In this document: piece after piece, positions 3,951-7,015 of the stretch | Layout: each line of letters opens with the position of its first letter | Numbering within the stretch: position 1 is the stretch's first letter | DNA from: a virus | Direction: 5' to 3' (one strand) | Virus record (IMG/VR): IMGVR_UViG_3300042446_000627 | Coordinates: 1-23,512 of that record | Length of the DNA stretch: 23,512 nt | The notes under the pieces: model-generated | The model's input: the letters and a program-made list of their open reading frames with translations, nothing else | Told to the model about the DNA's origin: nothing | The model's database searches: none | Made by a program: the position numbers and the translations under genes

Positions 3951-4595
3951 TTAAAATTCTTTTAAGTAAGATTGTGTTTTAGGTTCTTCGTTTTGTTTCA
4001 ATGGGAATACCCCTGCCCAATTATTTTTAATTGATTGCTCTAAAATTAAAATTTGTTTTTCTTCATTGCCAGGTGCAAAGTTATTCAAATCTTTTTTAAT
4101 TAATTCTATTGCTAGTTCGGTTGCAGGTTTTTTAATTGATTTTCTCATCCCAAGATAATTTTCAAAGATTAAATCAAAGTGATTTTTTGGCTCTTTATCC
4201 TTATCTTTATCCTTGTCTTTATCCTTATCTTTATCCATAGCACCTTTTAAGGGGCTTCTAAGGTGCTTAATTTTATATTTATTTAGTATGTCTAAAACTG
4301 ACTTATGAACTCTATTGTCAGGATTCAAAACTCCATATTGAAACTCTACAAAATCAAAAATAAACCACTTATCCCCGTTATCTATCACTTGTATTTGTTC
4401 TTTAAAAAGTTCTTTTGCAATTTCAAAATCTAAACTTTTATCTACTCTAATTTTAGCAACATCCTCATCAACTTGCCATACTCCAGCATGATCGCAGTCA
4501 TCCAAAATATAAAACCAAAAGAGCTTATAAGGAGCATCTAAGCCCCTTACAAATGGTTTTTTCCATTTTTCCGTATCAGTTAATCTTTTTGCCAT
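3951..4595 (-). CDS. Phage replication initiator-like protein with winged-helix N terminus
   Basis: A 214-aa protein placed directly before DnaB. Residues 1-100 resemble the N-terminal winged-helix domain of phage initiators (WKKPFVRGLDAPYKLFWFYI, DDCDHAGVWQVD, FVEFQYG), here about 5-95. A remarkable linker of alternating Asp-Lys (about 120-134) then leads to a C-terminal helical domain (HFDLIFENYLGMRKSIKKP through WAGVFPL) similar to DnaD/helicase-loader tails. I infer an O/DnaD-like role in origin opening and helicase loading. The stop abuts the DnaB start; the start lies 19 bases inside the MazG-like gene. The linker is encoded by a tandem 12-base repeat. Confidence 0.65.
   Translation of the reverse strand: MAKRLTDTEKWKKPFVRGLDAPYKLFWFYILDDCDHAGVWQVDEDVAKIRVDKSLDFEIAKELFKEQIQVIDNGDKWFIFDFVEFQYGVLNPDNRVHKSVLDILNKYKIKHLRSPLKGAMDKDKDKDKDKDKDKEPKNHFDLIFENYLGMRKSIKKPATELAIELIKKDLNNFAPGNEEKQILILEQSIKNNWAGVFPLKQNEEPKTQSYLKEF
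4193..4238 (-). repeat. Tandem 12-base repeat encoding an Asp-Lys linker
   Basis: On the plus strand the unit ctttatccttat occurs nearly 4 times in a row (one copy has g for a, the last is partial). Read on the minus strand it gives alternating Asp and Lys codons in the initiator protein. Such in-frame repeats change length by slippage without breaking the frame, so linker length may vary among related phages. Confidence 0.85.
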
Positions 4596-4914
4596 TGTTT
4601 TCTTTTATAAAAGTTCCATTTTCCATTTTACCTTTTCTATTTACAATAACATTATAAGCAGAATCAATACATCGTTCTAATGTAATATCTTCTTTAAAAT
4701 GAATTGAACCTAATTTAGCTACAGATACCAAAACAATTGTAATGTCTCCCAAAGCATCAATAAATTCATCTTTGTCGTTATTCATTAAAGACTTAGCTAA
4801 TTCTCCTGCCTCTTCAAATAGTTTTAAGGATTGAGTTTTAACATCCCCCTTTTCATAGATTCCTTTTTTTTCGGCCCAATCTCTGATAAGGCTGAAATCG
4901 TTGTTTAATTTCAT
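4576..4914 (-). CDS. MazG-like nucleotide pyrophosphohydrolase
   Basis: A 112-aa all-alpha NTP pyrophosphohydrolase, the family that hydrolyses (d)NTPs to monophosphates and pyrophosphate (MazG, dCTP pyrophosphatase). The metal-binding signature EExxE...ExxD is present as E34, E35, E38 and E50-x2-D53, with D57 following. FSLIRDWAEKKGIYEKGD at residues 7-24 is typical of phage and bacterial MazG-like proteins. I chose the ATG at 4914 because it starts five bases after the upstream stop and matches the usual family N terminus; an in-frame ATG at 4932 is possible. Next to a dCMP-specific synthase homologue, it could be the dCTP-removing enzyme of a base-modification pathway; that substrate is inferred. 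Confidence 0.85.
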   Translation of the reverse strand: MKLNNDFSLIRDWAEKKGIYEKGDVKTQSLKLFEEAGELAKSLMNNDKDEFIDALGDITIVLVSVAKLGSIHFKEDITLERCIDSAYNVIVNRKGKMENGTFIKENNGKKIN

Positions 4915-4918
4915 AATT

Positions 4919-5701
4919 TTATTTTTTAACATATACTACAATTCTTTTTTGATATTTATAATTTATTATTTCTACATTTTCAGAATTAAAATTTGTAAAG
5001 ATAGAAGTGTTTTTTAATTTTGGTAATTTAAATTTTGTTCTTAACGAATAAGTTAAAGCCGGTTTAATATGTTCTTCATAAATATGAGCATTAGCGGCAT
5101 TAATTATTACTTCTCTTGCTATTAAATTAAACTCTTTTGCGAATGAGGCTAGTATTAAAGAATACATTGCCATGTCGTAAGGTAATCCAATAAATAAATC
5201 TAATGACCTCATGCTTACAACTATATCAACAAAATTATTAATGTCTGTAACAAATTGAAAAGAATAATGGCAAGGAGGCAATTTCATTTTATATAAATCA
5301 TTTACATTCCACATATTTATTAATAATCTGCGGCTAAATTTGTTTTGCTTAAATTCTTTAATTAATAAATCAATTTGATTTAAGCCATTAAAAGATAATA
5401 TTTGATGCCCATAAACAGGACCAAGATCCCCATTTTCATCAGCCCATTGATCCCATATTTTTACTCCTTTTAAATTTAAATATTTAACATTTGTAAAACC
5501 TTTTAACATCCATTCTAATTCAATAGCTACAGTTTTTGGAAATATTTGTTTACCTGTTACTAATGGAAATCCATCCTGCAAATTTGCCCTAATTTGTATT
5601 GCAGTTATTTGTCTAGTCTTACCATTTCTACCAATTACTATGCTGCCTTTTTTGCATACTTGATTTATAATATCAGAATATTGTGTTTCAAATTTATTCA
5701 T
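4919..5701 (-). CDS. Thymidylate synthase homologue, predicted dCMP (hydroxy)methylase
   Basis: A 260-aa member of the ThyA/dCMP-hydroxymethylase family, which adds a one-carbon unit from methylenetetrahydrofolate to C5 of a pyrimidine nucleotide. The phosphate-binding R25 and R124/R125, E61, W83, the WADENGDLGPVYG block (86-98), the catalytic C144 in PPCH, R165-S-x-D168, and H206/Y208 are all present. The residue that reads the base, Asn177 in E. coli ThyA, is Asp here (D176 in GLPYDMAMY). The same Asp is found in T4 dCMP hydroxymethylase, and Asn-to-Asp switches Lactobacillus casei ThyA towards dCMP. The conserved C-terminal P-V-A-I tail is also missing (ends VVYVKK). I predict a dCMP substrate, giving 5-hydroxymethyl- or 5-methyl-dCMP. 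Family certain; substrate a strong inference. Confidence 0.85.
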   Translation of the reverse strand: MNKFETQYSDIINQVCKKGSIVIGRNGKTRQITAIQIRANLQDGFPLVTGKQIFPKTVAIELEWMLKGFTNVKYLNLKGVKIWDQWADENGDLGPVYGHQILSFNGLNQIDLLIKEFKQNKFSRRLLINMWNVNDLYKMKLPPCHYSFQFVTDINNFVDIVVSMRSLDLFIGLPYDMAMYSLILASFAKEFNLIAREVIINAANAHIYEEHIKPALTYSLRTKFKLPKLKNTSIFTNFNSENVEIINYKYQKRIVVYVKK

Positions 5702-5706
5702 TTTAT

Positions 5707-5970
5707 TTATTTTTTATTTAAGTAATCATTTAAAGACCCTAGATAAGCAACTGCATCAAGCAAATTATCCTCTTTATGACTGTTTGATTGCCTTGCTAAT
5801 TTTAATGCAATTAAAACATTATAACAATCTTTTATATCAATATCTTTATTAGACATTATTGATGCTAACTTTGATGTTTTTTCCATTGATATATGAAAAT
5901 CACCATACATTCTTGATTTTTCCTCTGATCGTAAATTTACAATCTCATTTGCTTTTTCTAAAATATTCAT
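5707..5970 (-). CDS. DUF6378-like small phage protein
   Basis: An 87-aa helical protein resembling the DUF6378 family of phage proteins. Visible are the N-terminal R..YGDFHISMEK segment (about 19-31), a central DIKDCYNVLIALKLARQ (46-62) and the terminal HKEDNLLDAVAYLGSLNDYL (66-85), the family's K-x-D-x-x-x-D-x-x-x-Y pattern. Such proteins are often found beside nucleotide-metabolism genes and have a MazG-like all-alpha look, but no activity has been assigned as far as I know. It lies between an unknown gene (4-base overlap) and the ThyA homologue (5-base gap), so it is probably part of the same pathway. Confidence 0.6.
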   Translation of the reverse strand: MNILEKANEIVNLRSEEKSRMYGDFHISMEKTSKLASIMSNKDIDIKDCYNVLIALKLARQSNSHKEDNLLDAVAYLGSLNDYLNKK

Positions 5971-6200
5971 AATAATTTTAATTGGATGTTTGTTGGATTT
6001 GAATTTTTGTAATTTATTATTCCGGATTTTTTTACTTTTATATTTATATAAACTTCGTTTAGTTTAAAATTATAAGTTTTATTAGGACCAGAATGCCATG
6101 CAATTCGAATTGTTTCTGATTCCAATATAGCCGTAATAATATTAGAACAATATAAACCATTATATGGGCCTATTATATCTATACATTTATATTTTTTCAT
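5967..6200 (-). CDS. Hypothetical protein, 77 aa, in nucleotide cassette
   Basis: Not recognised. The sequence looks mostly beta-stranded (YKCIDIIG, TIRIAWHSG, KTYNFKLNEVYINIKVKKSG) with many Ile, Asn and Lys. The ATG at 6200 is preferred over a TTG two codons earlier. It overlaps the deaminase end by 14 bases and its stop overlaps the next ATG, so it is translationally linked to the pathway. Codon use is as AT-rich as the rest of this cassette. Confidence 0.6.
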   Translation of the reverse strand: MKKYKCIDIIGPYNGLYCSNIITAILESETIRIAWHSGPNKTYNFKLNEVYINIKVKKSGIINYKNSNPTNIQLKLL

Positions 6201-6579
6201 AATCAATTTGCAGTTTAATTAATCCTGATAAATCTCTATATTGTTCTTTGAAATATACTTTTTTTATGCCTGCTTGTTTTATTAATTTACAGCATTCAAA
6301 ACATGGGCTTAAAGTTAAAAACAGTTCAGCTCCATAAGATTTATTACCAGCTTTTATAATAGCATTACATTCGGCATGTATTACTTCATTTAAAGTAATA
6401 TTATTTTGTTCGCAATTATTGCAAAATCCAGAAGGGGTGCCATTATAACCATATGAAATAATATTATTATCTTTAACTATTAATGCCCCCACTTTAGCGC
6501 GATTGCATCTTGATAATTTTGCTATTTCATGTACAATATTCATATAAATATTATTAATTTCAATTTGCCTTTTTTTCAT
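6187..6579 (-). CDS. Deoxycytidylate (dCMP) deaminase
   Basis: A 130-aa zinc-dependent deaminase of the dCMP deaminase/ComEB type, which converts dCMP to dUMP. The zinc and proton-shuttle motif HAECNAI starts at H68 with E70, and the second motif SPCFEC has C93 and C96. The substrate-side segment SYGYNGTPSGF (42-52) is characteristic of the dCMP family. Length is slightly short for the family. It is the first gene of an AT-rich operon, starting 12 bases after the U-tract of a structured leader and transcribed from a Bacteroidetes-type promoter at 6689-6719. Confidence 0.92.
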   Translation of the reverse strand: MKKRQIEINNIYMNIVHEIAKLSRCNRAKVGALIVKDNNIISYGYNGTPSGFCNNCEQNNITLNEVIHAECNAIIKAGNKSYGAELFLTLSPCFECCKLIKQAGIKKVYFKEQYRDLSGLIKLQIDYEKI

Positions 6580-6589
6580 TTTTGTTGTA

Positions 6590-6642
6590 TAAAAAAAGCC
6601 ACTACCCGTAGAGTTGGTGAAGCAATCTCTACTGGTGTGGCT
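6590..6642 (-). terminator. Intrinsic terminator-like hairpin before the deaminase
   Basis: The minus strand reads AGCCAC-ACC-A-GTAGAG, a 13-base loop, CTCTAC-G-GGT-A-GTGGCT, then a run of T. About 15 base pairs followed by U6-7 is a strong rho-independent terminator shape, lying upstream of, not after, the nucleotide operon. It implies regulated read-through or termination of a short RNA. Confidence 0.6.
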
Positions 6643-6684
6643 AATATCTTTGTTATTAATTGATGGTCTTCACCCCATCATAAC
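6590..6684 (-). ncRNA. Structured leader or small RNA with kissing-loop-capable hairpins
   Basis: Between the winged-helix gene and the deaminase, the predicted transcript folds into two hairpins. Hairpin 1 has a 6-bp stem (6675-6680 with 6661-6666) and an 8-base loop GGTGAAGA. Hairpin 2 has a nearly continuous 15-bp stem (6637-6642, 6634-6636 and 6627-6632 with 6597-6602, 6604-6606 and 6608-6613) and a 13-base loop containing CTTCACC, followed by a U run (6591-6596). The loops share a 7-base complement, GGTGAAG with CTTCACC. With a start near 6683 the RNA is about 93 nt and begins at hairpin 1. It could be an attenuator or riboswitch for the downstream nucleotide operon, or a separate small RNA ending at the U run. 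I do not recognise it as a known class. Confidence 0.6.
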
Positions 6685-6688
6685 ATTA

Positions 6689-6719
6689 CAAATATAGTAA
6701 AATATTTTAACTTTCCAAA
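6689..6719 (-). promoter_or_regulatory. Bacteroidetes-type promoter for the nucleotide cassette
   Basis: The minus strand has TTTG (6716-6719), exactly 19 bases, then TATATTTG (6689-6696), a full match to the Bacteroidetes consensus TTTG-N19-TAnnTTTG. The -33 box lies inside the last codons of the winged-helix gene (stop at 6707). Transcription should begin near 6683, immediately before hairpin 1 of the leader RNA. Confidence 0.75.
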
Positions 6720-7015
6720 TTTAATTTGTAAGTAAACTCTTTTTTATCTAAGTTACCAATTCTTCTACCAACCTTTTCAATCTTACCTTGACTCTCCAGT
6801 GTGTTTAAGGCCCGGCGAATGGATGTAATTGGAGTATTAACCCCTAACATATTCTGATTAAAAATAGTCCAAGCAGAAAACTCTTGATTAATTGGAAGTC
6901 TATCCAGGAGGAGTTGGTTCTGAGTCCTTGCCTTTTCTTTTGAAGCTTCAAGGTCTTTAGCTGATTCTTTGGTTGTGTTATAAAACACTCCGATAGCTTT
7001 AGTTATTATGTTCAT
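6707..7015 (-). CDS. Winged-helix DNA-binding protein
   Basis: A 102-aa protein with a helical N terminus (about 1-45, KESAKDLEASKEKARTQNQL) and a predicted winged helix in its second half. INQEFSAWTIFNQNMLGVNT is helix 1-2, PITSIRRALNTLESQGKIEK (about 61-80) is the recognition helix and start of the wing, and VGRRIGNLDKKEFTYKLN is the wing. It probably binds DNA, perhaps as an early regulator; the promoter at 6689-6719 overlaps its 3' end. The start overlaps the 61-aa gene by 17 bases. Confidence 0.6.
   Translation of the reverse strand: MNIITKAIGVFYNTTKESAKDLEASKEKARTQNQLLLDRLPINQEFSAWTIFNQNMLGVNTPITSIRRALNTLESQGKIEKVGRRIGNLDKKEFTYKLNLES

Follow-up and report, generated by a model that had tools for sequence, protein, structure and literature searches.

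The window, the whole stretch of 23,512 nucleotides that was analysed, carries on its minus strand a short gene-free interval between a gene with no assigned function (phrog_9069) and a dCMP deaminase-like gene, and a structured RNA element with its own promoter lies in and around this interval (Table 1). The promoter pattern, TTTG-N19-TANNTTTG at 6719..6689 (-), is exact, as the initial annotation had said; the pattern has two matches in the window as compared to 0.31 expected by chance, and its -33 part falls within the final codons of phrog_9069. A nucleotide cassette at 4576-6579 (-), made up of the deaminase, a small ORF, DUF6378, thymidylate synthase and MazG, separates the RNA from an O-like replication initiation gene. 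Among the viral loci fetched for comparison, L028, L033 and L034 have the O-like gene directly 3' of the RNA, without this cassette between them, and L002-L004 have a MazG-like gene directly 5' of the deaminase, about 330 nt before it, a gene order unlike that of the window.

Table 1. The RNA element of the window, its parts and the neighbouring genes.
Feature	Position	Strand	Basis or remark
Gene before the RNA, phrog_9069, no assigned function	6707..7015	minus	Constant neighbour in close relatives
Promoter TTTG-N19-TATATTTG, Bacteroidetes-type	6689..6719	minus	Exact pattern match; also kept 5' of the RNA in relatives
RNA, from just past the -7 box to end of U-run	6591..6688	minus	Fold (z = -5.64) and covariance model match
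P1, 5' hairpin, 6 bp	6661..6680	minus	Fold; pairs changed yet kept in relatives
Kissing loop 1, GGTGAAG	6668..6674	minus	Exact complement of loop 2; covaries, 23 loop types
Linker, 19 nt, A-rich, 3' end ..ATATTA	6642..6660	minus	Alignment of the window's subfamily
P2, hairpin of predicted intrinsic terminator, ~14 bp	6598..6641	minus	Fold
Kissing loop 2, CTTCACC	6616..6622	minus	Exact complement of loop 1; covaries
U7 run of terminator	6591..6597	minus	Sequence; U-run present in all relatives
Gene behind the RNA, dCMP deaminase-like	6187..6579	minus	PF00383, phrog_174; differs in relatives
O-like replication initiation gene	3951..4595	minus	phrog_678, E = 1.6e-9

The 5' end of the RNA is probably within the first 8 nt of the stretch 6688..6591. 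The minimum free energy of the fold is -31.5 kcal/mol, as compared to -15.5 ± 2.8 for dinucleotide shuffles, none of which equalled it (0/200), and a covariance model built with the window itself included matches 6591-6688 with E = 1.3e-18. The loop of P1 reads GGTGAAGA, and the complement between the two hairpin loops is exact over 7 nt. The observation of a structured two-hairpin leader in the window is thereby confirmed: the 6-bp 5' hairpin, the 7-base loop complement and the terminator-like 3' hairpin of a promoter-proximal RNA were all found as first described, and only some of the measures had to be corrected. The linker, which is the most conserved section inside the window's subfamily, has 19 nt and not 18, and P2 is not one run of 15 bp, it is split into three helices of 5+3+6 bp, with three optional inner pairs and small internal loops between the helices. 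The deaminase ATG lies 11 nt past the U7 run.

The interpretation first attached to this RNA, that it controls the nucleotide genes behind it, can be judged from the relatives. We fetched 23 loci solely through homology of the upstream protein, blind to the RNA, and the element was present in all of them. It follows directly past the stop of the upstream gene in 19; an inserted gene has displaced it in L031, L032 and L036, and in L020 it is likewise displaced by an insertion; there the loops, read by eye, are TCGCAC/GTGCGA, and P1 is weak, with 3 bp. What stands behind the RNA in these loci varies between an O-like replication gene, another replication-type protein and several unrelated small genes, and an identical downstream gene can stand behind differing loop types, as the 'MVDKIFSDK' gene does with three of them. 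Since the gene behind the RNA varies, feedback by its product is not implied. When the search was instead anchored on the deaminase, it gave 14 viral loci with a related deaminase, and the RNA leader was present in none. The claim of nucleotide-gene control therefore fails, and the RNA is tied to its place in the genome rather than to nucleotide metabolism, because it accompanies the upstream gene in every locus, is missing from the deaminase loci and keeps its place while the gene downstream is swapped.

A nucleotide or folate riboswitch, as had also been suggested, would control the deaminase, thymidylate synthase and MazG, and the genes behind the RNA in the window, DUF6378 among them, speak for it. 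Across relatives, however, the RNA shows no tie to ligand-pathway genes: the deaminase relatives are without the RNA, the RNA relatives are mostly without these genes behind it, and no sequence resembling a ligand pocket is conserved across the subfamilies; a model of one subfamily misses the others. This explanation is largely refuted by the genome context, and we consider it very improbable.

Homology to the O-like protein (query 3951-4595) gave 80 further viral loci. A detector for the architecture, with complementary loops required in addition to the -7 box and to the 5' and terminator hairpins, had 89 matches (43 distinct) in the fetched loci as compared to 6 in the same sequences reversed; three of the 43 distinct sequences were noise-like and were removed, leaving 40 RNAs. 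In a loop-blind control, every terminator-like element in the 500 nt that precede the O-like genes was listed with complementarity ignored, those of L101, L108, L127, L135 and L141 being assigned by eye. All promoter/terminator elements directly before a gene in this set had loops that match over 6 nt or more, and the two elements without a match, both in L135, lie farther upstream, outside any such RNA element. The RNA is found directly or almost directly upstream of the O-like homologue in many other phages; many other O-like homologues have no RNA element in the stretch examined, and the class is common there, not universal. In L150, L154, L156, L157 and L159 the RNA is separated from the O-like gene by a small gene and ends 355 nt upstream; here too the ATG, that of the small gene, comes directly past the U-run.

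It was also possible to find the element in a cultured phage. In the Flavobacterium phage FCV-1 the RNA lies directly before gp61, with loops GTAGTGC/GCACTAC, and this stretch is common to 65 Flavobacterium columnare phage records; in record NC_041845 the U-run of the element is near position 40,455. The stretches searched in the named Bacteroidota phages Fpv5, P12002L, phi12:1, phi17:1 and parts of FL-1 and BF695P3 contained no convincing copy, and a DNA search with 500 nt around the RNA against named phages gave no match. When 84,980 species of bacteria and archaea were scanned with the pattern, 26 matches came up, all due to chance when inspected. In 399 genomes of the Flavobacteriaceae range the O-like protein had six weak matches with the RNA near none of them, so a prophage host cannot be named. 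Judged by sequence, a predicted gene-free two-hairpin RNA is present before early or replication genes in many viruses of Flavobacterium-type bacteria.

The pairing between the loops was examined by covariation, counting one loop pair for each of 23 loop types, the eye-assigned ones included. The kissing positions were Watson-Crick in 156 of 161 cells, whereas random re-pairing gave a mean of 61.9 and a maximum of 91 in 10,000 trials; as the detector matches were pre-selected for complementarity, the weight of this count rests on the two protein-homology sets, those of the upstream gene and of the O-like gene. Three or four kinds of base pair occur at each of the seven kissing positions. Compensatory changes, which the initial annotation had proposed to look for, are accordingly present both in the relatives of the upstream gene and among the loop types, and the loops keep their complementarity through them, as a kissing-loop RNA should. 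That an ordinary terminator stands beside an ordinary promoter and the loops match by accident might be argued for any single element, each of which could consist of common parts, but the covariation over all types together with the two homology sets excludes chance. This explanation is refuted, and we give it practically no weight.

The complement ends at 7-8 nt in 37 of the 40 RNAs. Because it stops at the size of a hairpin loop, a contact between loops is indicated and not a long alternative helix or a strand exchange. L024 and its copy in L038 depart from this with a complement of 13 nt; this complement, GTTCCGTCTCAAA / TTTGAGACGGAAC, which extends into the P1 stem, is the longest type and is seen in L024:3468-3580, L025 and L038:1014.

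A faster evolution of the loops than of the rest of the RNA was considered but is not claimed, as it appears in chosen pairs and is absent from the closest pairs taken without filtering. In the chosen pair L124 and L148, 4 of 14 kissing positions are changed as compared to 6 of 70 others, a compensated loop change with nearly the same flanks. Without filtering, the change in loops and rest was 0 and 0.017 in the 17 closest pairs, and it was higher in the loops (0.325 and 0.131) solely at 11-15% divergence.

A covariance model made from the window's subfamily retrieves that subfamily alone and misses the others. That the subfamilies form one family is therefore a suggestion that rests on architecture, promoter, place and partly the letters of the linker, and convergence is possible. 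The letters just 5' of P2 are alike across subfamilies (TATTAG, TTATTAG, CTTATTG, AATAATAG), and these pre-P2 linker letters, the only sequence trace, might unite them. At the gathering score, Rfam 15 gave no match in the window and none in nine loci with divergent versions, which agrees with the first reading that no known class matches; the best sub-threshold match in the element, plasmodium_snoR31 with E = 3.3, is due to chance. Among the titles and abstracts inspected in the open-access literature, no description of the element was found.

P1 starts 2-13 nt past the -7 box, and an open-frame ATG follows 0-52 nt past the U-run in all 40 distinct RNAs, with a median of 6.5. Nearly all RNAs have no room for a second promoter between the U-run and the ATG, which implies that the gene behind would be transcribed through the terminator, even if the closeness of the ATG could partly come from the compactness of phage genomes. 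Our preferred reading, to which we give about an even chance, is that the element is a self-contained module of promoter, leader and terminator in Bacteroidota phages, in which a short RNA is made and read-through into early or replication genes is gated by conditional termination. From the architecture and the gene position we infer the following course of transcription, its termination, the conditionality and the trigger. The host polymerase would start at the promoter and make an RNA of about 85-113 nt, in which the 5' hairpin and the terminator hairpin fold compactly, joined by a loop-loop helix of usually 7 bp. Most transcripts would stop at the U-run, as small RNAs that have hairpins at both ends, and the gene behind would be reached by read-through of the terminator. 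Such attenuation would gate an early operon, usually including the O-like initiator, and the switch might respond to an antitermination factor of the phage, to the small RNA or to a signal from the host.

Conditional termination appears to be the most economical reading of these features. A promoter-proximal intrinsic terminator before a gene, as expected of an attenuator, is predicted in the window (P2 and U7) and in 40 of 40 relatives. Among nine RNAs there was no shared alternative (antiterminator) pairing, the nascent 5' folds gave no common competitor of P2, and no ORF is common to them that could be a conserved leader peptide, as a peptide-leader attenuator would have. In several of the nine, predicted folds of the nascent 5' part already have loop 1 paired with loop 2 when the 3' arm of P2 has yet to be made, so the loop contact may form first and affect the closing of P2, in either direction. 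The early suggestion of an attenuator or a small RNA thus stands as far as terminator hairpin, promoter and loop contact are concerned, but not as regards nucleotide genes, and we keep both readings.

The second of these, a stand-alone phage small RNA that acts in trans on host or phage RNA or protein, with the downstream genes served by leaky or upstream transcription and the terminator placed before the next gene merely through genome compactness, is possible but less probable. The element is built like a stable small RNA, with its own promoter, a 5' hairpin within the first nucleotides and a terminator end, the gene behind it varies, and both L038 and L103 carry two RNAs of differing loop type. 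Against this, the loop 7-mers were not clearly enriched elsewhere in the carrier phages in a target search, the loops pair with each other and would be hidden from targets, and the closeness of the ATG in every RNA is unneeded if the RNA acts in trans. In L038:132-1110 (= L188) the two RNAs, of loop types GGTGAAG and CGTCTCAAA, are about 0.9 kb apart and each lies directly before a gene; those of L103 are at 1228 and 9040.

Several of the nearest parallels come from plasmids. In the attenuators of pT181 repC and pIP501 repR, the kissing partner is a second RNA, transcribed antisense from the opposite strand. The phage element is similar in having a terminator leader before a replication initiator gene, predicted kissing loops and a putative specificity borne by the loops, but here both loops sit in one RNA. 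RNA I and RNA II of ColE1 are an intermolecular antisense pair that controls the primer; they share fully complementary 7-nt hairpin loops with the phage element, which differs in its predicted intramolecular pair and its terminator. By analogy, the phage element would resemble an attenuator leader with kissing loops of the plasmid-antisense type, both partners being present in one RNA.

This resemblance raises an alternate role for the terminated RNA, which may kiss nascent leaders in trans and alter termination as genome copies rise, in the manner of countertranscript RNAs in plasmid replication; the loop type would then determine specificity among related phages. Such a dose sensor is unlikely in our view, and so is its extension, in which the RNA is its own antisense and reports copy number to the replication operon, and the loop types are incompatibility groups between related phages. 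It would fit that the loops are complementary to each other with both partners on one RNA, that replication initiator genes follow the RNA in many phages, that some close pairs (L124 and L148) show a compensated loop change with near-constant flanks, and that both two-copy contigs carry differing loop types. Contrary to this, the unfiltered closest pairs show no faster loop change, and the gene behind the RNA is often not related to replication.

Among phage systems, tR1 and oop of lambda, the latter antisense to cII, are also a terminator and a small RNA near the phage O replication gene. They have no sequence likeness to the present element, and to our knowledge tR1 is not known for a loop-loop contact. 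The put RNAs of HK022 likewise fold into a pair of hairpins near an early promoter of the phage, but their sequence is conserved, whereas in the present element only the architecture is, and put RNAs are not known to end in a U-run terminator. That the element is a cis-acting antiterminator RNA which modifies the polymerase, like put, would suit two hairpins near an early-operon promoter in a phage, but the second hairpin is here followed by a U-run, which implies that the element terminates; we find this reading quite improbable. The phi29 pRNA and GOLLD/ROOL are phage-linked RNAs with complementary loops that can vary among relatives, as here, but their contacts join separate molecules into rings or cages, and pRNA has a role in packaging, unlike the present RNA, which is small and lies near replication genes.

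The element looks like an on/off leader of a kind not described before, rather than a sensor of nucleotides. This structured RNA is widespread among Bacteroidota phages, matches no Rfam family and is recognised by its architecture rather than its sequence, which is why sequence searches miss the class, just as the covariance model of one subfamily missed the others. Its loops are natural sets of loop-loop pairs with varied sequence and the same geometry. Its occurrence in cultured F. columnare phages makes the element directly testable, and it may have a bearing on the timing of replication genes in Bacteroidota phages.
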